Shown here in pieces: positions 465-28,305 of a stretch of 64,000 nucleotides of DNA (position 1 is its first letter; each line of letters starts with the position of its first letter). Below the pieces are notes generated by a model that had not been told where the DNA came from, made no database searches, and saw nothing but the letters and a program-made list of their open reading frames with translations. The translations under genes and the position numbers were made by a program. The DNA is taken from assembly GCA_031082205.1 (NCBI GenBank), contig JAVHLJ010000003.1, forward strand, positions 64,890 through 128,889, given 5' to 3'. Source of the DNA: Elusimicrobiales bacterium. Lineage in GTDB: Bacteria > Elusimicrobiota > Elusimicrobia > Elusimicrobiales > UBA9959.

Positions 465-501
465 GTCTGCACCTCGCGTGAAGATACTAGATTCTATAAA
501 T

Positions 502-3078: not shown

Positions 3079-3097
3079 GCCTTCATTTTGATTTTAC

Positions 3098-3103
3098 TAT
3101 AAT
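3098..3103 (+). promoter_or_regulatory. Putative -10 element (TATAAT) in the divergent kinase/amidohydrolase intergenic region
   Basis: AT-rich stretch ATTTTACTATAATATTAATT between divergent genes. Confidence 0.5.
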
Positions 3104-5619: not shown

Positions 5620-6221
5620 TGATATCGGCGATCGTACTGGCCGCCGGGGAGTCGTCCCGCATGGGGCGTCCCAAGGCCCTGCTCGAGTGGCGCGGCCTGC
5701 CTTTTATAGAGCATGTCTGCGCAGCGCTGCGCGGCGCCGGCGTCGAGGACCGGGTCGTGGTTCTGGGGCGGGCTTCGTCGGAGATCCTGTCCGGTTGGAC
5801 GCCGTCCGGCGAGAAGACGGTGGTGAATCCCAGGCCCGAGGACGGTCAGCTGTCCTCGCTGCGCGTCGGGCTGGAAGCGGCGGACCCGGACGCGGAGGCT
5901 TTCATGGTCTGTCTTGCGGACCAGCCTACGATAGCGCCGGATAGTTACAAGGCCGTGATATCCCGCTGGCGGGAGGCTCCGGACCATATCGTCATACCCC
6001 GGACTTTCAGGGCCGCGGACGCGCGGATGAAGCGCGGCCACCCCATCATTATCCCGGCGGCCCGTCGCGGGCTCTGCTTCGAAGGCCCGCTGGACAAGGG
6101 CCTGCACTGGGTCACGCATCATCCGTCGGTGAAGATAGCGGACCTCGACCTGGACGACAAGGAGATAATCAGGGATTTCGACACGCCGGAGGATTACGAC
6201 GGCCTCGCGGGCGGACGGTAA
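5619..6221 (+). CDS. Nucleotidyltransferase family protein (MocA/MobA-like molybdenum cofactor cytidylyltransferase)
   Basis: MISAIVLAAGESSRMGRPKALLEWRG signature; start overlaps the PFK stop (ATGA); adjacent to molybdenum hydroxylase genes. Confidence 0.85.
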   Translation: MISAIVLAAGESSRMGRPKALLEWRGLPFIEHVCAALRGAGVEDRVVVLGRASSEILSGWTPSGEKTVVNPRPEDGQLSSLRVGLEAADPDAEAFMVCLADQPTIAPDSYKAVISRWREAPDHIVIPRTFRAADARMKRGHPIIIPAARRGLCFEGPLDKGLHWVTHHPSVKIADLDLDDKEIIRDFDTPEDYDGLAGGR

Positions 6222-9382: not shown

Positions 9383-10219
9383 ATGAAAGAATCCAAAAAC
9401 CTGATCAAACTCCTTTCCGAGGCCATAGACTCAGGCCGCGGCGCCGCCTTCGTCACCGTCATAAGCGTCGCCGGCTCCACCCCGCGCGAGGCCGGCGCCA
9501 AGATGCTGGTCTACGCCGACGGCTCCATAGAGGGCACCGTCGGCGGCGGCGCCGTCGAATCGCTGGTCATCAAGAAGGCCGTCGAATGCGTCGCCAAAGG
9601 CGAGGGCGGCAAGTTCGTCTTCGGCCTCAAGCCCGGCGGCAATACCGGCATGATCTGCATGGGCGACATGGAAGTCTTCATAGACGTTTACAAGAACCCT
9701 TTCAGGGTGCTCATACTCGGCGGCGGCCATGTCGGCGTGAAGATAGCCGAGGCCTGCCGGCTGGCCGGCTATCCCTACCTGGTCGCCGACGACCGCAAGG
9801 AGTTCGCCAACCCGGAGCGGTTCCCCGAGGCCCTGGCCATAATAAACGAGAAGCCCCACGAGGCCGTCGCGGCCGCCGGAGCGGACGCCGACACCTACGC
9901 CGTCATCGTCACCCGCGGCCACGCGCTGGACAAGGAATGCCTGGAGGCGCTGCTGCGGACGAAGGCCCCCTATATCGGCATGATAGGCAGCGCCGACAAG
10001 GTGATGGCGATCTTCAAGTCGCTCGGATCCAAAAAGCTTTACCCGCTCAAGGACGGGCGGGTGCATTCCCCGATAGGCCTCAACCTGGGCGGCAAGACGC
10101 CGGGCGAGATAGCCGTCTCGGTGCTGGCCGAGATCATGAAGGTCCACTACAAGCGCGACGGCCTCCACATGCGCGAGGCCGCGGCCGGCAGAAAGGCCGC
10201 CGCCGGGAATAAGGGGTAA
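9383..10219 (+). CDS. xdhC: XdhC/CoxI family molybdenum hydroxylase maturation protein
   Basis: VISVAGSTPREAGAKMLVYADGSIEGTVGGGAVE and VLILGGGHVGVKIAEACRLAGY; directly upstream of xdh genes. Confidence 0.9.
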   Translation: MKESKNLIKLLSEAIDSGRGAAFVTVISVAGSTPREAGAKMLVYADGSIEGTVGGGAVESLVIKKAVECVAKGEGGKFVFGLKPGGNTGMICMGDMEVFIDVYKNPFRVLILGGGHVGVKIAEACRLAGYPYLVADDRKEFANPERFPEALAIINEKPHEAVAAAGADADTYAVIVTRGHALDKECLEALLRTKAPYIGMIGSADKVMAIFKSLGSKKLYPLKDGRVHSPIGLNLGGKTPGEIAVSVLAEIMKVHYKRDGLHMREAAAGRKAAAGNKG

Positions 10220-10220
10220 C

Positions 10221-12527
10221 ATGGAAAAGCTCTCTTTCGTGGGTAAATCGCTGCCGCGCAAGGACGCGGAGATAAAGGCGACGGGCAAGGCCCTCTACTC
10301 GGCCGACCTGGACTTCCCCGGCATGCTTCACGCCGCCGCCGTGCGCAATCCCAGGCCCCGCATAAAGATAAACGGCGTCTCCGACGCGGCCGCGAAAAAG
10401 ATCGCCGGCTACCGCGCGCTGGTGACCTATAAGGACCTGCGCGGCCCCAACAAGTGGCCGCTGGTCGACACCGATTACCCTTTCCTCCCCGAAGGGGAGG
10501 CCCGCTTCGAGGGCGAGACCGTGGCGCTCGTCGTCGCCGACAGCCACCGCGCCGCCCGCGCGGCCGCCGCGGCCGTGGAGATAAAGTACAAGGAGCTGCC
10601 TTTCGAGACAGATCCGCTCAAGTCGCTGGAGAAGGGCGCGGTCAAGCTCTACGGACAGGACAATGTCTTTTCCAAATTCTTCATCAAGAAGGGCGACGCC
10701 AGGAAGGCGCTGGCCGAGGCCGCCTACACCGTCGAAGGCGAGTTCACGACCAACTACCAGGTCCACGCCTACCTCGAGACGCAGGGCGCCATCGCCGTGC
10801 CCCAGCCCGACGGCGGCCTGGTCGTATATACCACAACGCAATGCCCGTTCTACGTCCTCGACGCCGTGGCGGCGGCCTGCGGGCTCCCGTACAACAAGGT
10901 CAAGATAATCCAGACCGTTACCGGCGGCGGCTTCGGCGGCAAGGAGGACGTGCCGGCGCTGGTGGCCTCGCACGCCGCGCTCTGCGCGCTCAAGACCGGC
11001 CGGCCCGTGCGCCTGATCTACGACCGCACCGAGGACTTCCGCTCCATGTCCAAGCGCCACCCGTCCTGGTCGCGCGTGACCTACGGCGCCGACAAGAACG
11101 GCCGCATCACCTCCTGCGTGGTGAAGTACGTGCTCGACGCCGGCGCCTATTCGACGCTCTCGCCGATAGTGCTCTGGCGCGGCACCGTGCACGCCGCCGG
11201 CCCGTACGAGATAGACAATGTCCTCATCGAGACTTACGCCGCGGCCACCAACAAGGTGCCGGCCGGCGCCTTCCGCGGCTTCGGCCAGCCGCAGATAAGC
11301 TTCGCCCAGGAGTCGCTCATCGACGAACTGGCGGCCAAGGCCGGCAGGGACCCGATGGATTTCCGTCTCCATAACCTCCTCGATCCCGGCGACATCACGG
11401 CCACCGGCCAGGAACTCACCTCGTCCTGCGGCCTGCGCGAGCTGGTCGAAGCCGTGAGGGAGAAGTCGGGCTGGGACAAGTGGGCGGAGAACGGCTTCCG
11501 CCGGGTGGAGGGGAACAAAGCCCGGGGCCTGGGAGTGTCGGCCGCCTATTACGGCGTCGGCCTGGGCGCCAAGGGGCGCTACCTCGACCGGGCCGGCGCG
11601 CTGGTCAATATCTACAAGGACGCCAGCGTGACGGTCAACGTGGGCAATACCGAGATGGGCCAGGGCGCGCTGACCGTGCTGGCGCAGATAGCCGCCGAGA
11701 CCCTCAACGCTCCGTATGGGAGCGTGCGCGTGGAGGAAGTCGACTCCACCAAGGTCCCCGACTCAGGCCCCACGGTGGCCAGCCGCACCACGCTGATGAG
11801 CGGCAACGCGATAATCGAGGCGGCCAAGCCGATACGCGACAACCTCTTCAAGACCGCGCTGGACATGCTCAAGGCCAAAGGCGCCGACATCGCCGGCATG
11901 ATGGAGGCCTCCGAAGGCGTCTTTTCCATCGCCGATCACAAAGTGACCTTCGGTGAAGTGGTGAAGGAGTGCTGGAACAGGCGGCTCAAGATGTGCGAGG
12001 AGGGCTGGTACGCCGCTCCCCGCACCACCTACGACATGAAGGACGGCCAGGGCGACGCCTATGTGACCTACTCCTATTCGGCGGACGTGGCCGAGGTGGA
12101 AGTGGACCTGGAGACCGGCGTGCTCAGGGTCGTAAAGCTCTGGGGAGCCTTCGACGTGGGCAAGATCATCAACCCGCGGCTGGCCGAGGGCCAGGCGCAG
12201 GGGGGGATGCTGCAGGGGATGAGCTGGGCGGTATATGAGAACCTGGTCTACAGGAACGGCATCATGGCAAATCCCAACTTCACCGACTATGTAATCGCCA
12301 CTACCGCGGATAAACCCGAATATGATATAACTTTCATAGAGAAAGATTACGAGGACGGGCCTTACAAAGCGAAGGGAATGGGGGAAGTGCCGCTCATAGG
12401 AGTGGCCGCCGCCGTGGCCAACGCGGTGAAGGCCGCCTCGGGCGCGCGCGTGACCTCGGTCCCGCTGCTGCCCGAAAAGATATGGAAGGGTCTCGAAGAG
12501 CGGAAAGCCGCCGGAGGAAAAAAATGA
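10221..12527 (+). CDS. Xanthine dehydrogenase family protein, molybdopterin-binding (large) subunit, copy 1
   Basis: GGGFGGKED, VPAGAFRGFGQPQ, TEMGQGALTVLAQIAAE, C-terminal KGMGEVPLIG with the conserved active-site Glu. Confidence 0.93.
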   Translation: MEKLSFVGKSLPRKDAEIKATGKALYSADLDFPGMLHAAAVRNPRPRIKINGVSDAAAKKIAGYRALVTYKDLRGPNKWPLVDTDYPFLPEGEARFEGETVALVVADSHRAARAAAAAVEIKYKELPFETDPLKSLEKGAVKLYGQDNVFSKFFIKKGDARKALAEAAYTVEGEFTTNYQVHAYLETQGAIAVPQPDGGLVVYTTTQCPFYVLDAVAAACGLPYNKVKIIQTVTGGGFGGKEDVPALVASHAALCALKTGRPVRLIYDRTEDFRSMSKRHPSWSRVTYGADKNGRITSCVVKYVLDAGAYSTLSPIVLWRGTVHAAGPYEIDNVLIETYAAATNKVPAGAFRGFGQPQISFAQESLIDELAAKAGRDPMDFRLHNLLDPGDITATGQELTSSCGLRELVEAVREKSGWDKWAENGFRRVEGNKARGLGVSAAYYGVGLGAKGRYLDRAGALVNIYKDASVTVNVGNTEMGQGALTVLAQIAAETLNAPYGSVRVEEVDSTKVPDSGPTVASRTTLMSGNAIIEAAKPIRDNLFKTALDMLKAKGADIAGMMEASEGVFSIADHKVTFGEVVKECWNRRLKMCEEGWYAAPRTTYDMKDGQGDAYVTYSYSADVAEVEVDLETGVLRVVKLWGAFDVGKIINPRLAEGQAQGGMLQGMSWAVYENLVYRNGIMANPNFTDYVIATTADKPEYDITFIEKDYEDGPYKAKGMGEVPLIGVAAAVANAVKAASGARVTSVPLLPEKIWKGLEERKAAGGKK

Positions 12528-13789
12528 AAGCCGTCAGGATATTCGCAGCGCTGCTGGGCGTGGCCATGCTGGCCGGGGGTGCCGCGGCGCAGGACAATTA
12601 CGAGAGACTGGCCAGGGAACTGACCGAGGCCGGCGCTTCGCTCGAGAACAAGAAAATAGCCATCATCCCGTTCGCTCACGCCGACGGGAGGGCCGTCACA
12701 AAGGACGGAGCCGTGGTATCCGAGCGGCTGACCATCAAGATGATCAACACGCGCAAGTTCGAGATCATCGAGCGCAGCGTGCTCGACAAGGTCATGGACG
12801 AGCTCAAGCTGCAGAACACCGGCGCCATAGACGCCACCAGCGCCAAGGAGCTCGGCAAGGTGCTCGGCGTGGAGGCGATAATCACCGGCACGCTGGTGGA
12901 GACTTCCAGCGGGAAAATAGAGGTGAACGCCCGTCTCATCAAGACCGAGACCGCGCAGGCCATAGGCGCCTCGCAGGTCACGGTGGAGAAGGACTGGATA
13001 GGCGACGCCCCGACCCAGATGCCGGCGCAGCAGCAGGCCCAGCAGCCGCAGGTCTACCAGCCGCAGCAGGCGGCAAAGCCGGCGGCCCCCCGACAGCGCC
13101 ATCCCAACGAATACGGTTATTTCGATATCTTCCTCGGCGGCGGCAGCCGGAACATCGACATAACCTACGAGAACACGAACGCCAACCTGTCTTCCGCGTG
13201 GCTCGGGATCTCAGCACCGTCGTTTACCGGTGCCCGGGAGGTCAAGTTAGAGCAGGCGGAAGGTTCAGGGGTGGGTCCTATAGGTATGCGCGTCGGCGGC
13301 TTCGGAAAGGGCGCCATAGGAGGCGCTTTTGAGTTCTCGGCCAATAGTCACATAGTGGAGCCGCAGACCGTTTCCGGCACCAGGAACGGGCTTACTTCCA
13401 CTTTTGTCCTGAGTCCGACCGCCAACCACCTGGAGATGACATCCTTCGGTTTCGTCGGGAATCTTTTTGTCAGGCACGCCGGCAAGACGGTGGATCCGTA
13501 TTTCGGCATCGGTCTTGGGTTATCCCTTAACAGGGTTTATATGCCCACGGTTACCGGCTATACGGGGACCACCTCTTCGCCTACCCGCCCTGTGGACCAG
13601 ATGGGAGTGGGCCTGATATTCAATATGCCCATAGGCGTCCGCATCAAACTGGACCCCAAGACCCAGATCGTGGCCGAAATGCGCTATGAGCTCAACAGCG
13701 TCAGTTTCGACCGTGACATCGCCGGTGAAAGCGACTCCATAAACTCCGACGGCGTCCGCTTCCTTGTCGGCATGGGTTTCGGCTTCTGA
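12524..13789 (+). CDS. Exported FlgO/LpoB-like domain plus C-terminal outer-membrane beta-barrel-like domain
   Basis: Signal peptide MKAVRIFAALLGVAMLAGGAAA; NKKIAIIPFAHADGRAVTKDGAVVSERLTIKMINTRKFEIIERSVLDKVMDEL...EAIITGTLVE; Q/P/A-rich linker; amphipathic strands ending in VRFLVGMGFGF. Start overlaps XDH stop (ATGA). Confidence 0.75.
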   Translation: MKAVRIFAALLGVAMLAGGAAAQDNYERLARELTEAGASLENKKIAIIPFAHADGRAVTKDGAVVSERLTIKMINTRKFEIIERSVLDKVMDELKLQNTGAIDATSAKELGKVLGVEAIITGTLVETSSGKIEVNARLIKTETAQAIGASQVTVEKDWIGDAPTQMPAQQQAQQPQVYQPQQAAKPAAPRQRHPNEYGYFDIFLGGGSRNIDITYENTNANLSSAWLGISAPSFTGAREVKLEQAEGSGVGPIGMRVGGFGKGAIGGAFEFSANSHIVEPQTVSGTRNGLTSTFVLSPTANHLEMTSFGFVGNLFVRHAGKTVDPYFGIGLGLSLNRVYMPTVTGYTGTTSSPTRPVDQMGVGLIFNMPIGVRIKLDPKTQIVAEMRYELNSVSFDRDIAGESDSINSDGVRFLVGMGFGF

Positions 13790-13803
13790 ACGGACGGTTA
13801 ACG

Positions 13804-14307
13804 GTGAAGAAAAAGGCCGCCGGTAAATTCCAGCTCGACTGCTCCGTGAACGGCGCCAGGGTGCGCCGCGAAATAGCGGCCTCGCGCACGATGCTGGAGT
13901 TCCTGCGCGAGGACCTGGGACTGAAGGGCACCAAAGAAGGCTGCGGCGAGGGGGAATGCGGCGCCTGCCTTATCCTGCTCGACGGGCGCGCGGTCAATTC
14001 CTGCCTGATGATGGCCGCCCAGGCCCACGGCAGGGAGATAGTCACAATAGAAGGCATCAAGGGCCGCGACGGCGGCCTGCATCCCATACAGAAGACTTTC
14101 ATGGAAGAAGGGGCCGTGCAGTGCGGCTTCTGCATTCCAGGCATCATAGTGGCGGCCGAGGCGCTGCTGCGCCGCAAGCCGGACGCGACCCTCGAGGACA
14201 TAAAGCTCGAACTGACCGGCAATCTCTGCCGCTGCACCGGCTACGAGAAGATACTCTCCGCCGTCGAGCTCTCCCGCGACGAACTGAAGAAAAAGGGGAA
14301 GCGATGA
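13804..14307 (+). CDS. XDH family 2Fe-2S (small) subunit, copy 1
   Basis: GCGEGECGACLILLDG...QCGFCIPGI...LTGNLCRCTGYEKI; GTG start. Confidence 0.93.
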   Translation: MKKKAAGKFQLDCSVNGARVRREIAASRTMLEFLREDLGLKGTKEGCGEGECGACLILLDGRAVNSCLMMAAQAHGREIVTIEGIKGRDGGLHPIQKTFMEEGAVQCGFCIPGIIVAAEALLRRKPDATLEDIKLELTGNLCRCTGYEKILSAVELSRDELKKKGKR

Positions 14308-15146
14308 GGCCCGAGCTGCTGGTAAGGCCGGCCTCTCTGGCGGACCTGTGGAAGGCCCTCCCCGCGCTGCCGCGCGACCGGCGCTACCTGGCCGGCGGCA
14401 CCGACCTGATGATAGCCGCGGGCCACGGGCACGCCGGCGACTGCTGGGTGGACATCAGCGGGCTTAAAGAGCTCAAGTCTTTCCGCGAAACCTCCTCCTC
14501 GATATTCATAGGGTCCGGCCTTACCATAGCCGAGTTGGCGGAGAAGCCGGCGGTGAAGAAATGGCTGCCGGCGCTGGCGCTGTGCGCCCCGCATTACGCC
14601 AGCCCCAGCCTGCGCAACATGGCGACCATCGGCGGCAACGCGGCCAACGGCAGCCCCTGCGCCGACGGCGTCTGCGCCCTGCTCTCGGAGAAGGCGGAGA
14701 TCGTTCTGGGCCTGAAGGGCGCGAAACGGAAGATGCCGCTCCATTCCTTTTTCCTCGCCCCCAAGCGCACCGCGCTCAAAAAAGACGAGCTGATACTGGG
14801 TTTCGAAGTCCCCAAATGGCGGCATGTCTCCGCCTACGAGAAACTGGGCCCGCGCTCCTATTTCGGGATCTCCAAGGTCACCGTCTGCGTTTCGGCGGAG
14901 ATCTCGGGCGGCCTGGTGAAAGAGGCGGTCATAGCCTGCGCCTCGGTGGCCCCGGTGCCGCTGCTGGCCCGCAAGGCCGCCGAGTTCCTCTACGGCCGCC
15001 GGCTGGACGAGGGGACCGTCAGCGAAGCCGCCGCGCTGGCCGAAAGCGAGGCCTCGCCGATAACCGATACGCGCTCGGAAGCCGGCTACCGCAAGGCCAT
15101 GGTGCGCGTCCTGGCCTCCCGCGCGCTTTCGAAACTGGCCGCCTGA
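14304..15146 (+). CDS. XDH family FAD-binding (medium) subunit, copy 1
   Basis: YLAGGTDLMIA, LRNMATIGGNAANGSPCADG; ATGA overlap with the upstream 2Fe-2S subunit. Confidence 0.92.
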   Translation: MRPELLVRPASLADLWKALPALPRDRRYLAGGTDLMIAAGHGHAGDCWVDISGLKELKSFRETSSSIFIGSGLTIAELAEKPAVKKWLPALALCAPHYASPSLRNMATIGGNAANGSPCADGVCALLSEKAEIVLGLKGAKRKMPLHSFFLAPKRTALKKDELILGFEVPKWRHVSAYEKLGPRSYFGISKVTVCVSAEISGGLVKEAVIACASVAPVPLLARKAAEFLYGRRLDEGTVSEAAALAESEASPITDTRSEAGYRKAMVRVLASRALSKLAA

Positions 15147-15200
15147 AGAGCCGCCGGGGACGCCACTCCGCGCCGTGTCCCCCGAAGAACGGAGAACATC

Positions 15201-16898
15201 ATGCTGCGAACCCTGACCCTGCTTGCCGCCCTTTCCCTGCCGGTTTCAGCCCTCCCCGCCGATCAAGACCCGCTGCTGAAGGCCCTTAAGACGGAACTGG
15301 ACAGGTCCTTCTCAAAGCTCAAGGACGCCGAAAAAGTCCCGCTCTATTTCCTGCATTACGGCGCCACCGACACCGACTATCACCAGGTCGGGGCGACGCT
15401 GGGCGCCCTTTCGTACGAAAACTCCGGACGGGAGCGCAGGCTCGACGCGGACGCGCGGTTCGGCTCGCCCGCGCTGGACAACACCCACGAACTAAAGGGG
15501 GCGCAGGCCCGCCAGAACACCAGGGAGCAGGCAGCCATAGACCTGCCGCTCGGCGACGACGAGGCCGCCATCAGGGCGCGGGCCTGGGAACTTACCGACG
15601 CCGCCTACAAGGCCGCGCTGGACCGCTACGCCAAGGTGAGGACCAATATCGGCGTCACGGCGGAAGAAAAGGACAAGTCCGGGGATTTCTCTCCGGCCAG
15701 CGCCGAAACTTTCTATTCCCCGGTCCGGCTGCCGGAACTCGACAAGGCCGGCTACCGCGGGATGGCCCGGCGGCTGTCGGCTAAGTTCAAAAAGCACGGC
15801 TTCATCATCCGCTCCGGCGTCTCGCTCAACGCCAGCGCCGTGAACCGTTACATGGTCAACTCGGAAGGGTCGGCCGTGGTCACAGGCAACAACTACCTCT
15901 ACCTTTCCTACTATCTGACCGCCCGGACGAAGGACGGGATGGACCTTTCGCGCGGCAAATTCTACCACTCCGACGGCCCCGCCGGGATCCCTGGCGAGGC
16001 GGAGATAGCCGCCGATATCGACAGGTCCGTCTCCGAGCTGGCGGCCCTTCTCGGGTCCGAGCCCAGCGAGCCTTTGAGCGTACCGGCCATACTGGACGGC
16101 CCCGCGGCCGGCCTCTTTTTCCACGAGATCTTCGGCCACCGGATAGAAGGCCACCGCCAGAAGAGCGAGAGCGAGGGCCAGACCTTCGCCAAGATGATCG
16201 GGCAGCGCATCATGCCCGAATTCCTGCGGGTTTACGACGACCCCTCGGTGCGCGAAGTCCGCGGGCAGTTCCTGCGCGGTTATTACACGCACGACGACGA
16301 GGCCGTGAAGGCCGCGCGGGCCTCCCTGGTGGAGAACGGCGTGCTCAAGGGCTTCCTGATGGGCCGCACGCCGATAGAAGGCTTCCCTTCCTCCAACGGC
16401 CACGGCCGCCGCTCGGCCGGAAAGGGGGCCGTAGCCCGGCAGGGGAACCTGATCGTCGAGGCTTCCGCGACCGTCCCGTACCCCGAATTGCGAGGGATGC
16501 TGCTCGAAGAGATAAAGAAGTCGGGCAAGCCCTACGGCCTGCTAATAAAGGACATTTACGGCGGTTTTACCATCACGCAGCGCGTGCTGCCGCAGAGCTT
16601 TACCGTGCAGGTGCTGCTGGCCTACAAGGTCTACGCCGACGGCCGGCCAGACGAGGCCGTGCGCGGCCTGAACCTCATCGGCACCCCCATACAGACCTTC
16701 TCCAGGATAAAGGCCGCGGCGGACGACGCCGGCGTCTTTAACGGGGATTGCGGCGCCGAGTCCGGCTGGGTGCCGGTCTCCGCCGTTTCGCCCAGCCTGC
16801 TTTTCAGCGAGATAGAGACCGAGAAGGTCTCAAAGTCCAACAATAAGCCGCCGCTGCTGCCGCCGCCTTACGCCGAAGGCCAAGGGGGGAAGATATGA
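15201..16898 (+). CDS. TldD/PmbA family metallopeptidase with N-terminal signal peptide (HExxxH present)
   Basis: MLRTLTLLAALSLPVSALPA signal peptide; DGPAAGLFFHEIFGHRIEGHRQK; FPSSNGHGRRSAGKGAVARQGNL. Confidence 0.88.
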   Translation: MLRTLTLLAALSLPVSALPADQDPLLKALKTELDRSFSKLKDAEKVPLYFLHYGATDTDYHQVGATLGALSYENSGRERRLDADARFGSPALDNTHELKGAQARQNTREQAAIDLPLGDDEAAIRARAWELTDAAYKAALDRYAKVRTNIGVTAEEKDKSGDFSPASAETFYSPVRLPELDKAGYRGMARRLSAKFKKHGFIIRSGVSLNASAVNRYMVNSEGSAVVTGNNYLYLSYYLTARTKDGMDLSRGKFYHSDGPAGIPGEAEIAADIDRSVSELAALLGSEPSEPLSVPAILDGPAAGLFFHEIFGHRIEGHRQKSESEGQTFAKMIGQRIMPEFLRVYDDPSVREVRGQFLRGYYTHDDEAVKAARASLVENGVLKGFLMGRTPIEGFPSSNGHGRRSAGKGAVARQGNLIVEASATVPYPELRGMLLEEIKKSGKPYGLLIKDIYGGFTITQRVLPQSFTVQVLLAYKVYADGRPDEAVRGLNLIGTPIQTFSRIKAAADDAGVFNGDCGAESGWVPVSAVSPSLLFSEIETEKVSKSNNKPPLLPPPYAEGQGGKI

Positions 16899-18601
16899 AA
16901 GCGCGCCTCTGCGTCCTCCTGACGCTGCTCCTGGCGACGCCGGCCGCCGCGGACCGGACGCTCGACGCCATGCGCGACGAACTGGAACGCACCATGTCGC
17001 GCCTGGCCATGCCCGGGATGCAGAAAGCTTATTTCGCCTCCTACCTACTTTCCGATTCCACCGACTACGCGGTCTCGGCCTCGTTCGGTGAGCTCGTGGA
17101 TTCCGGCACCCCCGTCTCGCGCGGCGCGGCGGCGGAGATACGGATAGGAGGGCGCTCATTCGACAGCTCCGGCTACGCGGGCTCGGATTTCCGCTCCTTC
17201 CGGCCCGTCACGGGCGGGGCGGTCATAGAGGACGACTATGACGCGGTCCGCGCCGCCCTCTGGGCGCTGAGCGATCACGCCTACAAGACCGCCCTGGAGA
17301 AACACGCCCAGAAGAAGGCTTACAGCGAGAAGAAAGGCATAAAGGAACTTTACGGCGACCTCTCCGTGGAGAAGAAGGTCTCGGTCCTGGAGAAGGTGCG
17401 CCCCGCCCCGGAATTCCCGAAGGAAAGCTGGGAGTCCCGCGTCAAAGAACTTTCCTCCGTATTCCGCGGTTATCCCGGCGTCCAGTCCTCGGAGGTGCGC
17501 GTCGAATGCACCAGGCGGGTGAACCGTTTCGTCAACAGCGAGGGTACGCGGTACCGCGTCAACGCCGATAAGGCGCATTTCTACGTTTACGCGGAGGTGC
17601 AGACCCCGGAGGGGCTCAAGGTTTCGGACCGCAGGGAACTGCACTGGCCTTCCTGCGCCGACATCCCCGACCAGAAGGAGCTCCTGGCGGAGGTCGGCGG
17701 CTTCGCCCGGCTGATGGACGGCCTCTCCCGCTCGCCGGCCGGCGAGGTCTATCTCGGCCCCGTTCTTTTCGAAGGCGGCGCGGCGGCCGAGTTCATCGCC
17801 CAGCTTTTCGTAAGGGGGATATCCTTCCCGCGGCGGGCCTGGGCGGACAATGAGGACTATCTCAAGTACTATATCGACAAGGGCGGGTTGACGGAGCGCG
17901 TCGGCATGCGGGTGCTGCCCGGCTTCATCAGCGTCCACGACGACCCCGCCGAGACCGCGGCCGCCGGCAAACCTCTCGCCGGGCATTACAGCGTGGATTC
18001 GGAAGGCGTACGGCCCGGGCGGCTGGAACTGGTGAAGAGCGGCCGGCTGGCCAATGTCTACATGTCCAGGGGCCCCGTCAAAGATTTTTCCTCTTCCAAC
18101 GGCCACGGCCGCGCGGCCCTGAACGAGTTCCCTTCCGGCCGGCCCGGCAACGTCTTCGTCACTTCCCGGAAGACTGCCCCGGCGGCGGAACTGAAAAAGC
18201 GCCTCCTGGAGCTGGCGGCCGAGCAGGAGCTCGACTACGCCGTGATAGTGCGGCGCCTGGCCTCGGAGACCACCCTCGACCTGGAGAACATACTGGCGGC
18301 CCCGGTGCTGGCCTGGAAAGTCTACCGGGACGGGCGGGAGGAACTGATCAACGGCGTCGAGTTCACCGGCGTGACCTACAGGGCCCTGCGCGACATCGTT
18401 TTGACCTCGGACGAGCCTTATATCTACAATTACTACCAGCCCGGGCCTTACGCCATGTCCCGGGGCTCGGTCGCGGCTTCCATCGTGTCGCCTTCGGCCG
18501 TGCTGGTGCAGGAGATGGAACTGAAGCGCACCGACCGCAAGCCGGACCGCGCCCCGTACATCGGGCACCCGTTTTTCGCTGATAACGGAGGTAAAAAGTG
18601 A
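16895..18601 (+). CDS. TldD/PmbA-like protein lacking the HExxxH motif, with signal peptide
   Basis: MKARLCVLLTLLLATPAAA signal peptide; homologous layout to the preceding protein (FSSSNGHGRAALNEFPSGRPGNV) but the motif position reads EGGAAAEFIAQLFVRGISF. Confidence 0.82.
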   Translation: MKARLCVLLTLLLATPAAADRTLDAMRDELERTMSRLAMPGMQKAYFASYLLSDSTDYAVSASFGELVDSGTPVSRGAAAEIRIGGRSFDSSGYAGSDFRSFRPVTGGAVIEDDYDAVRAALWALSDHAYKTALEKHAQKKAYSEKKGIKELYGDLSVEKKVSVLEKVRPAPEFPKESWESRVKELSSVFRGYPGVQSSEVRVECTRRVNRFVNSEGTRYRVNADKAHFYVYAEVQTPEGLKVSDRRELHWPSCADIPDQKELLAEVGGFARLMDGLSRSPAGEVYLGPVLFEGGAAAEFIAQLFVRGISFPRRAWADNEDYLKYYIDKGGLTERVGMRVLPGFISVHDDPAETAAAGKPLAGHYSVDSEGVRPGRLELVKSGRLANVYMSRGPVKDFSSSNGHGRAALNEFPSGRPGNVFVTSRKTAPAAELKKRLLELAAEQELDYAVIVRRLASETTLDLENILAAPVLAWKVYRDGREELINGVEFTGVTYRALRDIVLTSDEPYIYNYYQPGPYAMSRGSVAASIVSPSAVLVQEMELKRTDRKPDRAPYIGHPFFADNGGKK

Positions 18602-19440
18602 ACGACCTTAAGAAATGCGTATTCCCCGCCGATCTGAATTCCGCGCTCGCCGCGCTGTCGGACCGCAAGTCCTCGCCTTTCGCGCTGGCGGGAGGGACTC
18701 TCTCCGGCAAGAACATAGGCCCGGAGACGGGCTCGCTCGTGGACCTCAAGCGCCTGCCGCTGTCCGCGATAAAGGCGACGGCCTCCGGGCTTTCCATAGG
18801 CGCCCTGGCCACCTTCGACGAGATAGAGAACTCCAAGGCCGTGAAGTCCTGGGCCGGCGGAGTCCTCTGCGCCGCCGCCGCCAAATGCTCCAGCCAGCTG
18901 GTGCGCAACATGGCCACGATAGGCGGCAATATCGCGCGCCCCAACGCCTTCAACGTGTTCCCGCCCCTGCTGCTGGCCCTCGACGCCAAAGTGAAGGTCG
19001 CCTGGAAAGGCGGGTCCAGGACCCTGCCGCTGGCCGGTCTCTACGACGGGACGCTGAAGCGGACCCCCGGCCGCGACTGCCTGATAACCGAGGTGATACT
19101 GCCGGCCTCCTCGAAGGGCCTTAAATGCGCTTTCGAGAAGTTCGCCAGGACCGAGTCCAGCTGGGAGTCTTACATAACCCTGGCGATGTGCGCCGAGGTG
19201 AAGAAAGGCGTCATAAAGTCGGCCAGGATAGGGATAGGCGCCCTTTCCGCCGTGCCCGCCCTGGCCCCCAAGGCCGCCGCCGCCCTGGCCGGCGGGTCGC
19301 CCGGCGAAGCCGCCGGCAAGACCGCCGCCGCCGCGCTGGCGGGCGACCTGGCCGGGATGAGGATCTCGCCCAAGTCCATGGAATTCAAGAAAGAGGTGGC
19401 CGCGGCGCTGCTCAGGCGCTTCGTCGCCTCGCTCGCCTAA
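18598..19440 (+). CDS. XDH family FAD-binding (medium) subunit, copy 2
   Basis: FALAGGTLSGKNIG, LVRNMATIGGNIARPNAFNVFPPLLLALDA; GTG start overlapping upstream stop. Confidence 0.9.
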   Translation: MNDLKKCVFPADLNSALAALSDRKSSPFALAGGTLSGKNIGPETGSLVDLKRLPLSAIKATASGLSIGALATFDEIENSKAVKSWAGGVLCAAAAKCSSQLVRNMATIGGNIARPNAFNVFPPLLLALDAKVKVAWKGGSRTLPLAGLYDGTLKRTPGRDCLITEVILPASSKGLKCAFEKFARTESSWESYITLAMCAEVKKGVIKSARIGIGALSAVPALAPKAAAALAGGSPGEAAGKTAAAALAGDLAGMRISPKSMEFKKEVAAALLRRFVASLA

Positions 19441-19455
19441 GTACCGGGAGAAAAA

Positions 19456-19977
19456 ATGAAAAAGAACAAGACCGAGTCCCTGGCCGCGGAAAAAGGCCTC
19501 TTCGTAATTTCCCTCACCCTCAACGGCCGCCCGGCCGAGTTCAGGGTAAAGCCCGGCGATTTCCTGCTGGACGCGCTGCGCGCCCACGGCTGGAAAGGCA
19601 CCAAGAAAGGCTGCGACACCGGCGACTGCGGCTCCTGCGCCGTGATGTTCAACGGCAAGCCGCGCCTGGCCTGCATGATCCCGGCCGTCACCGCCCACGG
19701 CGCCGTCGTAGGGACCATCGAGGGCGTAGGCACGGTGGACAAGCCCCACCCGGTGCAGGAGGCCTTCGTCGAGGCCGGCGCCGTGCAGTGCGGTTTCTGC
19801 ATACCGGGCATGGTCATCACCTCGAAGCACCTGCTCGAGAACGTCCCGGACCCGTCCGAGGCGCAGATAAAGAAGGCGCTCGACGGCAACCTCTGCCGCT
19901 GCACCGGCTACGTCAAGCAGATAGAGGCGGTAAAGATCGCCTCCAAGAAGCTCAGGACGAAGCGAGCCGCGAAATAA
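19456..19977 (+). CDS. XDH family 2Fe-2S (small) subunit, copy 2
   Basis: GCDTGDCGSCAVMFNG...QCGFCIPGMVI...LDGNLCRCTGYVKQIE. Confidence 0.93.
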   Translation: MKKNKTESLAAEKGLFVISLTLNGRPAEFRVKPGDFLLDALRAHGWKGTKKGCDTGDCGSCAVMFNGKPRLACMIPAVTAHGAVVGTIEGVGTVDKPHPVQEAFVEAGAVQCGFCIPGMVITSKHLLENVPDPSEAQIKKALDGNLCRCTGYVKQIEAVKIASKKLRTKRAAK

Positions 19978-20002
19978 GACCGGGCCATAACGGAGAACGA
20001 TC

Positions 20003-22318
20003 ATGGAAAAGAAAGATTTCAAGGTAGTCAATCAGCGCGTCGACAAGCAGGACGCCCTGGGCCTGGCCTGCGGCCACCCCGTCTTCGCCGACGACATGGA
20101 TTTCGCCGGCATGCTCTACGGCCGTCTGCTCTGGAGCCCCCACGCCCACGCCAGGATAAAGAAGATAGACGTCTCGGCCGCGATGAAAGTGCCCGGCGTC
20201 AAGGCCGTCCTGACCTGGAAGGACGTGCCGCGCGTGCTGCGCACCACGGCCGGCCAGGGCTATCCCGAGCCGTCCCCTTACGACACCTGCACGCTCGACA
20301 ACAAGGTGCGCTTCGTGGGCGACCGCGTCGCCGCCGTCGCCGCCGAGACGCCCGAGGCCGCGCAGGAGGCCCTGGGTCTCATAAAGGTGGATTACGAAGT
20401 GCTGCCCGCCCTGTTCGACCCGCTGCTGGCCGACAAGCCCGGCGCTCCGGTCATCCACGACGAGCCCGACGCCAAGAACATCCCCGACGCCAAAAAGAAC
20501 ATAGCCGCCAAGTTCGAGTTCGAAGTGAAGAACGGCGAATGGTTCAAGGACGCCGACTTCGTCTTCGAGAAGACCTACTCGATGCCGTACCTGCAGCATT
20601 GCGCCATCGAGAACCACACCGTCATCACCAGCCTCGACCATCACGGCCGCCTCGTGATACGCACCTCCACCCAGGTGCCGTTCCACGTGCGCCGCATAGT
20701 CGCCCAGGCCCTGCAGATCCCGGTCAAGAAGATACGCGTCATAAAGCCCCGCATAGGCGGCGGCTTCGGCTCCAAGCAGGAGGTGCTGCTCGAGGACATC
20801 TGCTCGGCGCTGACGCTCAAGACCGGCAAGCCGGTCAGGATAGAGTACAACCGAAAGGAGACCTTCGTCTCGTCGCGCACCCGCCATCCCGCGGTGGTGC
20901 GGCTCAAGACCGGCGTGAAGAAGGACGGCACCATCACCGACGCCGAGATGGATATCACGCTCAATACCGGCGCCTACGGCTCCCACGCGCTGACCGTCAT
21001 GATGTGCTCGGGCTCCCACACCATACCGATGTACAAGGTCGCCAATAACATAAAGTTCATCGGCAAGAGCGTCTACACCAACCTGCCGGTGGCCGGCGCC
21101 TACCGCGGCTACGGCGCGACCCAGGGCTTCTTCGCCTGGGAATCGCAGATGGACATCATGGCCGACGCCGTCGGCATGGACCGGATCGAGTTCCGCAAGC
21201 GCAACTATATCCGCCTCGGCGAGGGTTCGCCGGTCTTCAAGGCCATGGGCGAGGGGCGCGAGGGCGTCGAGCAGGTCATCACCTCCACCGGACTCTACGA
21301 ATGCATCGAAGAGGGCATGAAGGCCATCAAGTGGAAGGAAAAGAAGGAAAAGTACCGCCACCAGACGGGGCCGGTACGCCGCGGCCTGGGCATGTGCGGC
21401 CTGATGCAGGGCTCCGGCATCCCGGAAGTGGACATGGGCTGCGCCACCATCAAGATGAACGAGGACGGCTCTTTCAACCTGCTGATGGGCGCGGCCGACC
21501 TGGGCACCGGCTCGGACACGATACTGTCGCAGATAGCGGCCGAGGTGCTGGGCGTCAAGGTGACGGATATCATCGCCCATTCCTCGGACACCGACATCAC
21601 GCCTTTCGACGTGGGCGCCTACGCCTCGTCGACGACCTTCATCTCCGGCGGCGCGGTCAAGAAGGCCGCCGAGCGGGTGCGCGAGATGATAATCGAGGTC
21701 GGCGCGAAGATACTTGAGAAGAAGAAAGAGGACCTGAGGCTGGAAGGGGGGAAGGTCGTCGCCAGGGACGGGGCCTCCTGCTCCCTGTCCGAGGTGGCCA
21801 ACACCTCGCTGTACTATTACAACCAGCACCAGATAACGGCCTCCGCCTCGCATTTCGGCCACACCTCGCCGCCGCCCTTCGCGGCGCATTTCGCCGAGGT
21901 GGAAGTGGACACCGAGACGGGCAAGGTGAGGATACTGGACTATGTCTCCTGCGTGGACTGCGGCACCGCCATCAACCCGACGCTGGCCGAGGGCCAGAAC
22001 GACGGCGCCACGCTCAACGGCATAGGGCATACGCTCAGCGAGGAGATGGAGTTCTCGTCGGCCGGCACGCCGCTCAACGCCAGCTTCAGGCGCTACAAGA
22101 TCCCCAGCACCGAGGACCTGCCGCCGATGAAGACGATAATCATCCCGACCTTCGAGCCCAACGGCCCTTTCGGCGCCAAGTCGGTCTCGGAGATAGGCAT
22201 CAACGGCCCGCTGCCGGCCGTCGCCAACGCGATAGCCGACGCGACCGGCGCCCGCCTCTACGACGGCCCGTTCACGCCTGACAAGGTCCTGCGGGCCGTG
22301 AAGAACAGGGCGTCCTGA
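20003..22318 (+). CDS. Xanthine dehydrogenase family protein, molybdopterin-binding (large) subunit, copy 2
   Basis: RIGGGFGSKQEV, VAGAYRGYGATQGFFAWESQMD, AADLGTGSDTILSQIAAEVL, FGAKSVSEIGINGPLPAVANAI (conserved Glu). Confidence 0.93.
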   Translation: MEKKDFKVVNQRVDKQDALGLACGHPVFADDMDFAGMLYGRLLWSPHAHARIKKIDVSAAMKVPGVKAVLTWKDVPRVLRTTAGQGYPEPSPYDTCTLDNKVRFVGDRVAAVAAETPEAAQEALGLIKVDYEVLPALFDPLLADKPGAPVIHDEPDAKNIPDAKKNIAAKFEFEVKNGEWFKDADFVFEKTYSMPYLQHCAIENHTVITSLDHHGRLVIRTSTQVPFHVRRIVAQALQIPVKKIRVIKPRIGGGFGSKQEVLLEDICSALTLKTGKPVRIEYNRKETFVSSRTRHPAVVRLKTGVKKDGTITDAEMDITLNTGAYGSHALTVMMCSGSHTIPMYKVANNIKFIGKSVYTNLPVAGAYRGYGATQGFFAWESQMDIMADAVGMDRIEFRKRNYIRLGEGSPVFKAMGEGREGVEQVITSTGLYECIEEGMKAIKWKEKKEKYRHQTGPVRRGLGMCGLMQGSGIPEVDMGCATIKMNEDGSFNLLMGAADLGTGSDTILSQIAAEVLGVKVTDIIAHSSDTDITPFDVGAYASSTTFISGGAVKKAAERVREMIIEVGAKILEKKKEDLRLEGGKVVARDGASCSLSEVANTSLYYYNQHQITASASHFGHTSPPPFAAHFAEVEVDTETGKVRILDYVSCVDCGTAINPTLAEGQNDGATLNGIGHTLSEEMEFSSAGTPLNASFRRYKIPSTEDLPPMKTIIIPTFEPNGPFGAKSVSEIGINGPLPAVANAIADATGARLYDGPFTPDKVLRAVKNRAS

Positions 22319-22325
22319 CCCCGGC

Positions 22326-23627
22326 ATGAGGATCCCGTCCTGCGCCCTCTTCCTGACGCTGTGCTGCGCCGCCGCATCCGCGCAGGAGGGGGGCGCAGCT
22401 TTTACGCCCAGGGCCTATATCTCCGCCGTCCTCGAGGCCTCGCCGGCCATGGCCAGGGCGGAACTGACCCTGGCCCGGGCCAGGAACGAGTACAGGGCCG
22501 CCGTGCTGGACGCGGCGCTGCCTTCCTTCTCGCTCTCGCTCTCGGGCAGCCTCTATGACGACGCCGACACGCGCCTTCGCCTGGAGCGGGGGGATTTTAC
22601 CTCGTCGCTGTCGGCCGCCTGGAACCTTTACGATTCGGCCTCCGGGCCGGTGCGCAGGATAAGGACGGCCCGGCTGGACTACGGGCAGGCTGAACTCACC
22701 TACCTGATAGCCAGGCAGGAGGAAGCCCTCAAGGCCCTCAGCCGGTTCTATGCCCTCTATTCCGCCCGCGGGAGGGTGGCCGCCGCCAAAGCCAATCTGT
22801 CCTCCCGCGAGCGCCAGTACAAGGATACCAACGACCAGTACCAGTCGGGCACGCGCAGCCGCATCGAGGTGATGCAGAGCGAGGGCGACAAGCTGCAGAG
22901 CGAGCTCTCGCTGGCCCAGGCGGAGACGGCGGGGATAAAGGCGCTGATGGCCTTCAACGAGCTGATCAACGCGGACCCCGTCGCCCCGGCGGAGGTGGAG
23001 GTCAGCACCGCCGTTCCCGACATAACCCTGCCCCTGCCGCCCTCGGACGCCGTAAAAGCGCTGGAGAGCAATTTCAGCCTGCGCCGCCGCAGGCTGGCCC
23101 TGGAAAAGACCAAGATCACCACCCGCAACGCCGTGGCGGCGGAACTGCCGCGCCTGCGGCTGGACGCCTCGTGGCAGAAGTCCGGCCTGGGGGTGATCGG
23201 AGAGCCCGCCTACGGCGGAGCCGGCAATCCGGACTACGGCCTTCGCGCCTCCCTGTCGTTCCCATTCGGTTTCTTCTGGGCGCAGAACGCGCTTGAAATA
23301 AGCCGTACTCGCGACTCGCTCAGTTCGGCCGAAGCCGACCTCCGGGACGCCGAGCGCGCCCTCCGCACCGAGGTGCTGACTGCGCAGAAGGAGATAGAGC
23401 TCCAGGTCAGGTCGCGCGACCTGCTCGAATTCCAGGTGAAGACGCAGAAGGAGTCCACCGACAACCTGCTTTCGGAATATTCGCTGGGAGGAGCCAACAT
23501 GCTGCAGCTCGACACCGCCCAGACCAAACTGCTCGATTCCACGAACGGCCGCATAGCGGCCATAAACGCCCTGGATATAGCCCTGGCCGGGTACAGGGCC
23601 CTGCTCGGGGAAAGGATATGGGAATGA
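22326..23627 (+). CDS. TolC family outer membrane efflux protein
   Basis: Signal peptide; long helical segments (LTLARARNEYRAAVLDAALPSFSLSLS...; QYQSGTRSRIEVMQSEGDKLQSELSLAQAE; SEYSLGGANMLQLDTAQTKLLD). Confidence 0.88.
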   Translation: MRIPSCALFLTLCCAAASAQEGGAAFTPRAYISAVLEASPAMARAELTLARARNEYRAAVLDAALPSFSLSLSGSLYDDADTRLRLERGDFTSSLSAAWNLYDSASGPVRRIRTARLDYGQAELTYLIARQEEALKALSRFYALYSARGRVAAAKANLSSRERQYKDTNDQYQSGTRSRIEVMQSEGDKLQSELSLAQAETAGIKALMAFNELINADPVAPAEVEVSTAVPDITLPLPPSDAVKALESNFSLRRRRLALEKTKITTRNAVAAELPRLRLDASWQKSGLGVIGEPAYGGAGNPDYGLRASLSFPFGFFWAQNALEISRTRDSLSSAEADLRDAERALRTEVLTAQKEIELQVRSRDLLEFQVKTQKESTDNLLSEYSLGGANMLQLDTAQTKLLDSTNGRIAAINALDIALAGYRALLGERIWE

Positions 23628-24541
23628 AAAAGACGCTCAAGACCGCTTTTTGGGCCGTGCTCCTTCTCCTGGCCCTGTCGGCCGCTTTCTACGGATATGG
23701 CCGCTACAGCCGCATGCTGGTCAGGCCGGACATAGAGGACTTCCTGCGTACCGTAGAACAAGGGGAGCTCAAGCTGGATATGCAGGAATCCGGGGAGCTG
23801 GTCTCGCGCGACAGCGTGGACGTATTCCCTCCCGGCCGCGGCTTCATAGTCGAGATAACGAAGAAGGAAGGGGAGTACGTCGGGAAAGGCGAGAAGATAA
23901 TGATGTTCAAGGGCGGCGAGCGCATAGACTCGGACCAGTACGTCCCCGTGCCCGTCACCGCCCCCCGCGAGGGCCTGCTGACCAGGTGCGTCGGCATGAG
24001 GGGGTCGAGCGACGCCGAGATAAGGGAGGGGAACCGCGTCTCGGGGCCGACCAACTGCGTGGCCCGCGTGGTGGACATGGGGACGCTGGCCGTCAACCTC
24101 CAGATCAGCGAGATAGACATCTACAAGCTCAGGCCCGGCATGCCGGTGACCATAACCTTCACCGCCATCCCCGGCGAGAAGTTCGCCGGGAGGGTGGACG
24201 TCATCTCGCCGATGGCCGAAGTCCGCTCCGGCACCTGGGGCAGCACCACCAAGGTGTTCCGGGTGGTCATAAGCATCGACCGCCCCACCCAGAAGATGCG
24301 CGTCGGCATGAGCGCGGTGGTCACCGCCAATCTCAAGGCCAAGCGGGACGCCGTCAAGGCGCCCATCGAGGTCCTTTTCCAGGAAGGCCTGAATTACTAC
24401 GTTTACCGCCGAAAACAGGGCTACGAGTACGACAAGGTCCAGGTTTTTCCGGGGCTCAGGTCGGAATCGGAAGTGGAACTCAAAGGCGAGGTTAAACCGG
24501 GCGACGTGCTCTTCACCGCCCGGCCGGAGACCCTCAGATAG
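23618..24541 (+). CDS. HlyD-type periplasmic adaptor (membrane fusion protein)
   Basis: Single N-terminal TM, GFIVEITKKEGEYVGKGEKIMMF (lipoyl-like), VTAPREGLLT, LRPGMPVTITFTAIPGEKFAGRVDVISPMAE. Confidence 0.82.
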   Translation: MGMKKTLKTAFWAVLLLLALSAAFYGYGRYSRMLVRPDIEDFLRTVEQGELKLDMQESGELVSRDSVDVFPPGRGFIVEITKKEGEYVGKGEKIMMFKGGERIDSDQYVPVPVTAPREGLLTRCVGMRGSSDAEIREGNRVSGPTNCVARVVDMGTLAVNLQISEIDIYKLRPGMPVTITFTAIPGEKFAGRVDVISPMAEVRSGTWGSTTKVFRVVISIDRPTQKMRVGMSAVVTANLKAKRDAVKAPIEVLFQEGLNYYVYRRKQGYEYDKVQVFPGLRSESEVELKGEVKPGDVLFTARPETLR

Positions 24542-25222
24542 ATGATACTCTGCCGCGGCCTCGAGAAGATATACGAGGGCGGAAAGTCCGGCTGGCCGGC
24601 GCTCCGCGGAGTCTCTTTTTCAATAGAGCCGGGCGAGTTCGTGGCGGTGACCGGCCCTTCCGGCTGCGGCAAGTCCACGCTGCTCAACATACTCGGGCTG
24701 CTCGACGAGCCGAGCGGCGGCGCCTACGAGCTCGGCGGGCTGGACGCCTCGCGCATGTCCGACGGCGAGCGCTCCCGCGCGCGCCTTCACCGGATCGGTT
24801 TCGTTTTCCAGGCCTTCCATCTTCTCAACCGGCTATCCGCGCTGGAGAACGTCTGCCTGCCCATGATGTACGCGGGCGAGACCTCCGACGGCATGCGCCG
24901 CAGGGCGCACGAACTGCTGGCGCGCGTCGGCCTCAAAGGGAAGGAGCGCAAGACCCCGCTGGAACTCTCCGGAGGCGAGCGCCAGCGCGTGGCCATAGCC
25001 AGGGCCCTGGCCAATTCCCCGAAGCTGCTGCTGGCGGACGAGCCCACGGGCAACCTCGACTCCGCCTCCAGCCGGGAGATAATGGACATACTCTTCGAAC
25101 TGGGCCGCGGGGGGATGACCGTCATCATGGTGACCCACGACCGGGAACTGGCGGCCCGGGCCGGCAGGGATATCCGCATGCGCGACGGGAAAATAGAAGC
25201 CCACAGGGGCGGGGATAAATGA
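24542..25222 (+). CDS. ABC transporter ATP-binding protein (MacB/LolD type)
   Basis: VTGPSGCGKSTLLNILGLLD, LSGGERQRVAIARALANSPKLLLADEPTGNLDS. Confidence 0.95.
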   Translation: MILCRGLEKIYEGGKSGWPALRGVSFSIEPGEFVAVTGPSGCGKSTLLNILGLLDEPSGGAYELGGLDASRMSDGERSRARLHRIGFVFQAFHLLNRLSALENVCLPMMYAGETSDGMRRRAHELLARVGLKGKERKTPLELSGGERQRVAIARALANSPKLLLADEPTGNLDSASSREIMDILFELGRGGMTVIMVTHDRELAARAGRDIRMRDGKIEAHRGGDK

Positions 25223-26517
25223 CCCGCGCCCTCTATAACGCCGCCCGCACGGGGCTCGCCGAGATACTGGCCCACAAGACCCGCTCCACGCTGAGCTTCC
25301 TGGCCATCGCGGCCGGCTCCGTGGTCTTCATAGACGCTTTTTCCGCCATAGTCGCCACCTACGCCCGCCTGGAGAGCCAGAAAGAGGTCTCGGGCATGGC
25401 AAGGATGAAGATCTCTCAGAACAACAGCCGCAGCGTCGCCGACGTGGACGATTACCAGCCTCCGCCAGTGATAACTTACGACGACGTGCTGCGCCTGAAG
25501 GAGAGGGTCCCGGGTCTTTACATGGTCTCCCCGGAGGGGACCAACTGGCGGAACGTCCTGGAGTACGACGGGCAGCGGGTCCTGACCCGCGTGGCGGGGA
25601 TAACCCCGGAGTGGCGGAAACGCGACTTCGTATACGACCTCAAGGGCCGCTTCATCGACTGGCACGACGTGGACCAGAAGCTGCGCGTCTGCGTCCTTGT
25701 GCGGCCGGCTCCGCCGGAGCCCTCCAACGCCTTCTTCAAGACCATGCGGCAGAAATACAACTACATGGGCGGCTACGACATGCTGGTCACCCATAACGAC
25801 CTGCTGGGCCGCGTTATAAAGATAGACGGGATCAATTTCACCGTCATAGGCGTCCTCGACGAACTGCCGCCCTCCCGCAAGCCGCCCCGCATCTGGTGGT
25901 CCGGCGGGGACTACAAGGCCCTGGCTCCGGTCACGACGCTCATGCATTACGGCGTACTGCGCTCCCATAATTCGCTTGACGTGAGCATAGACGCCGGGGA
26001 CGAAAAGGGTTTCGACGAGGCCATGCGGCTGGTGCGCAACTTCCTCAAGGTCCGTTTCGGCGACGAGGATTTCTTCGTGGTCGAGAACCAGATGGACGCG
26101 ATAAAGGAGAGCATGTCCCGGAACATAAGTTCCTCGCTGGTCACCATCTCCCTCGGGATGCTGGCCTTCATCGCGGGCGGTATAGGCATAATGAACGTGA
26201 CTCTGGCGACCGTTTTCGCCCGCACCAAAGAGATAGGCGTGCGCAGGGCCATCGGCGCCGGCCGCGGGGACATCATGCTCCAGTTCATAGTGGAGGCCGT
26301 GATGCTGGGGCTTATCGGCGGGCTCCTGGGAACCGCCCTGGGCTGGTTCTGGGGCGTTCCGGCCAAGGTCATGCTGGGCATGCCCCCCAGCCCCATAAAG
26401 GTATGGATGCCGCTGGTCTCGGTCTTCATAGCGGCGCTGACGGCTTTCGTCTTCGCCATCTATCCCGCCTGGGTGGCCGCCGGCCTCAAACCCGCCGAGG
26501 CGCTGAGGGCCGAATGA
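25219..26517 (+). CDS. ABC transporter permease (MacB/FtsX type)
   Basis: N-terminal TM, large periplasmic domain, C-terminal FtsX: IGIMNVTLATVFARTKEIGVRRAIGAGRGDIMLQFIVEAVMLGLIGG. Confidence 0.93.
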   Translation: MTRALYNAARTGLAEILAHKTRSTLSFLAIAAGSVVFIDAFSAIVATYARLESQKEVSGMARMKISQNNSRSVADVDDYQPPPVITYDDVLRLKERVPGLYMVSPEGTNWRNVLEYDGQRVLTRVAGITPEWRKRDFVYDLKGRFIDWHDVDQKLRVCVLVRPAPPEPSNAFFKTMRQKYNYMGGYDMLVTHNDLLGRVIKIDGINFTVIGVLDELPPSRKPPRIWWSGGDYKALAPVTTLMHYGVLRSHNSLDVSIDAGDEKGFDEAMRLVRNFLKVRFGDEDFFVVENQMDAIKESMSRNISSSLVTISLGMLAFIAGGIGIMNVTLATVFARTKEIGVRRAIGAGRGDIMLQFIVEAVMLGLIGGLLGTALGWFWGVPAKVMLGMPPSPIKVWMPLVSVFIAALTAFVFAIYPAWVAAGLKPAEALRAE

Positions 26518-28267: not shown

Positions 28268-28305
28268 AAAAAGAAAAGGCCGGGTCTCCCCGGCCTTTCT
28301 TTTTG
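28268..28305. terminator. Bidirectional rho-independent terminator between convergent genes
   Basis: AAAGAAAAGGCCGGG-TCTC-CCCGGCCTTTCTTTTT: GC stem with A-run/T-run on both sides. Confidence 0.85.

Follow-up and report, generated by a model that had tools for sequence, protein, structure and literature searches.

The closest described counterpart of the protease pair at the center of the locus analyzed here is TldD/TldE (PmbA) of Escherichia coli (MEROPS M103), likewise a heterodimer-type pair in which the HExxxH motif and the Cys are found in one partner only, and which removes the leaders of RiPPs and trims unfolded N-termini (PMC10885120). In Gluconobacter, tldD/tldE influence PQQ-dependent acidification (PMC8602642). 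The enzymes on either side of the pair resemble three described types of molybdenum hydroxylases, namely, the purine xanthine dehydrogenases (XDH; Rhodobacter capsulatus XdhAB, 1jro, and Bacillus PucCDE), the branch of E. coli-type XdhABC and 4-hydroxybenzoyl-CoA reductase, and the selenium-dependent clusters, in which, as here, maturation genes of the MocA and XdhC types accompany two hydroxylases. In the window, that is, the entire 64,000-nucleotide stretch of an Elusimicrobiales genome that we analyzed, two such enzymes flank a TldD/TldE pair with the same predicted fold as that of E. coli TldD/TldE; unlike the E. coli proteins, however, both partners (~565 aa) carry N-terminal signal peptides, and PF01523 is not detected. 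The open-access literature that we searched, which omits most subscription papers, contains neither a precedent for this arrangement, in agreement with the sequence-only reading that first drew attention to it, nor a description of the function of an exported TldD/TldE pair.

The nine genes proposed in that reading are all present as open reading frames in the order, place, and plus-strand orientation it gave, and Pfam and NCBIfam models back their identities. The molybdenum-binding large subunit L1 (10221-12527; Pfam, alignment to 1jro chain B), of the purine XDH type, is followed by an exported outer membrane (OM) protein (12524-13789), the small subunit S1 with two [2Fe-2S] clusters (13804-14307; PF01799, PF00111), the FAD-binding medium subunit M1 (14304-15146; PF00941, PF03450), the exported TldD-type metalloprotease (15201-16898; PF19289), its exported TldE-like partner (16895-18601; PF19289), the FAD-binding M2 (18598-19440; PF00941, PF03450), the 2x[2Fe-2S] S2 (19456-19977; PF01799, PF00111), and the large subunit L2 (20003-22318; NF043082, 1rm6), which carries the GGGFGSKQ motif and belongs to the E. 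coli XdhA/HCR-like branch. The protein described simply as a barrel is indeed an OM beta-barrel, with an additional N-terminal CsgG/FlgO/LpoB-like domain (PF03783, PF17680); its AF2 model (pLDDT 82) retrieves OmpA/OmpW-type barrels and the LpoB C-domain in Foldseek. The reported translational overlaps are in place, ATGA at the L1-barrel, S1-M1, and TldD-TldE junctions and GTGA at TldE-M2, and the remaining gaps among the nine genes are 14-54 bp, the M1-TldD gap being 54 bp.

The proposal of a single transcription unit is likely correct, although the run is longer than claimed. It extends from an XdhC/CoxI-family chaperone of molybdenum hydroxylases (9383-10219, plus strand; PF13478, PF02625) through the nine genes and a set of MacAB-TolC-type efflux genes (TolC, HlyD-like, ABC ATPase, MacB; 22326-26517, plus strand; Pfam) to a 612-aa protein (26403-28241, plus strand), and ends at a strong bidirectional terminator-like hairpin (28275-28298, plus strand), with no convincing plus-strand terminator between the genes of the run 5' of this hairpin. 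The packed run is apparently one long operon, and the pair is probably co-transcribed with the hydroxylase cluster, judging from gene spacing and overlaps. The 612-aa protein, which has no Pfam or NCBIfam match, recurs close to the XDH cluster in relatives. Farther 5', the same strand encodes an 8-oxoguanine deaminase (3135-4508; NF006055, 639.8 bits against a cut-off of 532), which recurs 5' of the XDH core in relatives, a MocA-like molybdenum cofactor cytidylyltransferase (5622-6221, start approximate; PF12804, with TIGR03310 at 129.7 bits, below its cut-off of 186), a phosphofructokinase, a cyclase, and a CitMHS transporter; a putative gene of 879 aa (463-3102), 5' of the deaminase, has no Pfam or NCBIfam match.

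The two hydroxylases, each with a complete L, M, and S set and the catalytic Glu in L, are enzymes of different subfamilies; the sequence-only reading had suggested different substrates from their active-site loops. L1 and L2 are only 30% identical (paired subunits, 30-42%) and, therefore, are not products of a recent in-locus duplication, a possibility that the subunit identities together with the different best NCBIfam models rule out. The loop motifs, GAFRGFG in L1 and GAYRGYG in L2, are as originally quoted and are kept in the orthologues save for F/Y swaps at one position. In L1, E242, R320, and E722 align with E232, R310, and E730 of R. capsulatus XDH chain B, the purine-binding and catalytic residues of that enzyme, and are invariant across the 38-39 orthologues that have a residue there. 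At the level of sequence, L1 thus carries the complete purine XDH active-site signature, and L1-S1-M1, which has the same subunit set as the purine enzymes, with XdhC nearby, is most likely a (hypo)xanthine dehydrogenase; it differs from them in that each of its three subunits has a gene of its own, arranged L-barrel-S-M, and in that its scores fall under all NCBIfam equivalog cut-offs (best for L1, 531.3 against 783.65). L2 is nearest to the E. coli-type XdhABC/4-hydroxybenzoyl-CoA reductase branch by both its best NCBIfam model (NF043082, E. coli-type XdhA; 694.7 bits, also under its cut-off of 780) and its best PDB match (1rm6, 4-hydroxybenzoyl-CoA reductase), but Q259 replaces the usual XDH glutamate and there is no substrate Arg near 337-338 (33 orthologues), with the catalytic Glu, E730, kept. 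The best NCBIfam models for S2 and M2 are those of glyceraldehyde dehydrogenase. M2-S2-L2 would, then, be a second, exchangeable hydroxylase acting on a heterocyclic substrate that is possibly related, and at least one of the two molybdenum enzymes is likely purine-oxidizing. L2 also matches TIGR03313 in part, but a selenium-dependent hydroxylase cluster is unlikely: in this genome, the maturation gene YqeB has no match and YgfK has none above the cut-off.

The central pair is exported, as proposed, but its two members are not alike: the first is of the TldD type, and the second, 28% identical to it and lacking both HExxxH and the zinc Cys, is, by these features, a putative TldE-type partner. 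Aligned to E. coli TldD, the zinc-site residues of the first protein, the H308-E309-xxx-H313 motif and C517, are invariant in 53 sequences, and 116 of 120 partner genes in the +1 position lack HExxxH. The AF2 model of TldD (pLDDT 93.2) finds E. coli TldD/E as its best PDB matches (5nj5, TM 0.65/0.76), and all 16 Foldseek matches with E <0.001 are TldD/PmbA entries, so that a TldD-type fold with its zinc site is supported by the model. PF01523 escapes detection in the exported TldD by sequence, although the structural alignment spans 542 columns; canonical PF01523 is present in another, separate pair of the host genome. By a crude signal-peptide score, 126 of 140 TldD proteins and 110 of 120 partners rank high, yet 182 of 292 controls also pass, so the case for export comes mainly from the visible leader sequences. 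Single-chain TldD-TldE fusions with one HExxxH occur in two other phyla (L042:9965-13330 and L049:4384-7842, from Eisenbacteria and a Gemmatimonadetes MAG) and support a working heterodimer.

The arrangement is old and real. The nearest named relatives of the window's genome are Elusimicrobia/Elusimicrobiota MAGs. Among the relatives, all represented by MAGs, with several loci cut by contig ends, the pair occupies the M1|M2 junction in 23 genomes from ~10 genera and two families (the second family being that of G095), and possibly in a 24th, G012, whose locus shows the M1 side only; the linkage is kept despite TldD identities down to ~50%. Relatives share the mirrored core, L1-(barrel)-S1-M1 | M2-S2-L2, and among them are 12 genomes that have no pair at the junction (G009, G014, G017, G019, G020, G026, G027, G029, G034, G040, G048, and G049) and that bear, elsewhere, a pair of another lineage, separated from the first by a deep split; one of these, G014, has ~5 kb of other sequence between S1 and M1. 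Conversely, in G006, G031, G032, and G036, L1-S1-M1 was not found at the locus, and barrel-TldD-TldE adjoins a different M2'-S2'-L2', and in G041 and G052, the M2'-S2'-L2' cassette lies upstream of the pair in divergent orientation. Altogether, the pair is present in 98 of 101 relatives, typically once per genome, including small, reduced gut relatives in which XDH is absent. In other phyla, only 2 of 75 pair loci have XDH within ~10 kb, and in neither case do XDH and the pair share an operon (in L036, the genes are divergent with two genes between them; in L108, they are separated by a Ppx-like gene), and an XDH-TldD association there looks like chance.

In trees of TldD and of TldD+TldE for the window's family, obtained with quick searches, the linked pairs (clade I) split from the unlinked pairs (clade II) with 99-100% SH-aLRT support. 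This split cuts across genera g3, g4, and g9, whereas sequences in the L1 and L2 trees group by genus, with both states intermixed. Among the 59 genomes of this family, clade I alone is present in 29 and clade II alone in 23; 3 carry both, and 4 carry neither. This near-mutual exclusivity (Fisher p ~2e-9, with kinship among genomes ignored) has its few exceptions in genomes with 3-5% estimated contamination (both lineages) and in incomplete or fragmented assemblies (neither lineage). Clade I pairs also occur outside any XDH cluster (G013, G021, and G010). Three clade I genomes show the address of the other lineage: G031 and G032 have the clade II neighborhood, with its upstream genes and polysaccharide deacetylase, and ~0.5 kb in place of the pair, and G035 has this neighborhood in part. 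The simplest reading is that the two pairs are functionally equivalent and that one is kept per genome, although pair-free sites could be ancestral rather than products of loss. In the L1-S1-M1 tree, pair presence, the root-most state, changes 6 times, and the well supported branches require the pair-free state to have been gained or lost 4 times or more. Repeated independent insertion at M1|M2 need not be invoked: clade I is one lineage, and a single origin of the linked pairs, with G095 among them, withstands the AU test (p 0.287).

The genes beside the pair at its other addresses are of a different kind. An exported polysaccharide deacetylase (PF01522) follows the unlinked pairs at 16 of 24 clade II loci (for example, L121:6594-7445), and an LptF/LptG-type permease fusion follows the exported pair at 18 of 75 loci in other phyla, with representatives in Bryobacterales (L079:6338-8665) and Terriglobia (L108), a possible link to the envelope.

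The second enzyme slot has a history of its own. In G001, a member of the window's genus, a different cassette takes the place of M2-S2-L2 (L151, 12680-16680; compared with L162, L168, L169, L155, and L164). Over 4 kb, its DNA is 89% identical to the cassette of genus g4; its edges fall right behind TldE and right behind L2, and the flanks are mostly 72-83% identical to those of g4. By this contrast in identity, M2'-S2'-L2' in G001 appears to be a recent horizontal exchange into the same slot; the second slot can therefore receive another enzyme with the pair remaining in place.

How, then, is the position of a protease pair between two hydroxylases to be explained? A recent chance insertion or an assembly artefact might be suspected in a draft MAG of 98 contigs with 3.4% contamination, but the same junctions recur in 23-24 independent MAGs of several genera and two families, which refutes this explanation and leaves it with practically no probability. 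Functional coupling, whereby the exported TldD/E would serve the XDH operon (it might, for instance, trim or remove envelope polypeptides made along with the operon, such as the barrel, or take part in one response that scavenges purines and peptides from dead biomass), would account for the stable linkage, the translational coupling in the window, and the exported barrel within the same operon. However, at least 4 losses of the pair from XDH clusters can be inferred (gains of the pair are also possible on the tree), the pair persists where L1-S1-M1 was not found beside it and where XDH is absent, and the XDH subunits have no signal peptide obvious by eye, so that the protease and the enzymes would occupy different compartments. 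Furthermore, synteny alone says little about function because the housekeeping phosphofructokinase is equally syntenic in the region; on balance, we regard such coupling as unlikely. An entirely neutral arrangement would perhaps have been disrupted more often over ~10 genera and a second family, which counts against full independence of the two systems. The linked pair could also be a dedicated operon component acting in the envelope on the barrel or on an unseen MacAB-TolC-exported peptide, with the second lineage substituting in trans in the pair-free relatives; this, too, we consider distinctly unlikely. By analogy with the maturation of microcin B17 and PQQ, and given the results on E. coli and Gluconobacter cited at the outset and the MacAB-TolC-type genes directly 3' of the hydroxylase genes, TldD/E and the exporter might, alternatively, process and expel a small peptide, either a RiPP or a peptide-derived cofactor. 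Such a cassette is highly improbable, considering that no RiPP-modifying enzyme or precursor gene was recognized among the annotated genes, that the M1-TldD gap is just 54 bp, and that the unlinked pairs adjoin different genes (deacetylase, LptF/G).

The explanation that we favor, and consider probable, is that a purine-type two-hydroxylase cluster coexists with an independent, single-copy periplasmic TldD/E protease that has two alternative addresses. Under this explanation, the pair would have arrived at the M1|M2 junction a single time, early in the group's history, with each genome retaining essentially a single copy at one address or the other; the hydroxylases would be cytoplasmic enzymes with purines or related heterocycles as substrates, and the pair, as a TldD/E-type metalloprotease, would trim or clear unfolded exported polypeptides in the periplasm. 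Co-transcription would tie the expression of the pair to that of the hydroxylases, with their functions remaining independent. We infer this location, activity, range of substrates, shared transcript, and lack of functional coupling from the sequences and their distribution. The view that the pair is a part that the XDH system needs is not supported: the 12 relatives keep the homologous locus without the pair, an outcome that the sequence-only reading had itself named as grounds for refutation; linked pairs and unlinked ones behave like substitutes for each other, one copy per genome; and the pair occurs without XDH in gut relatives and in many phyla. Because relatives keep the enzymes without the pair and have an equivalent pair elsewhere, the pair and the XDH systems are probably only neighbors.

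Taken together, these observations portray the locus as a two-slot molybdenum-hydroxylase operon whose second cassette has passed between genera. The exported TldD/TldE pair that it harbors is widespread across bacterial phyla, and the maintenance of essentially one copy per genome at either address, reduced gut genomes included, points to an envelope function that is nearly indispensable, so that the pair is best read as a putative exported protease that these bacteria can hardly do without. With its two addresses, the pair offers natural replicates in which this envelope function may be tested.
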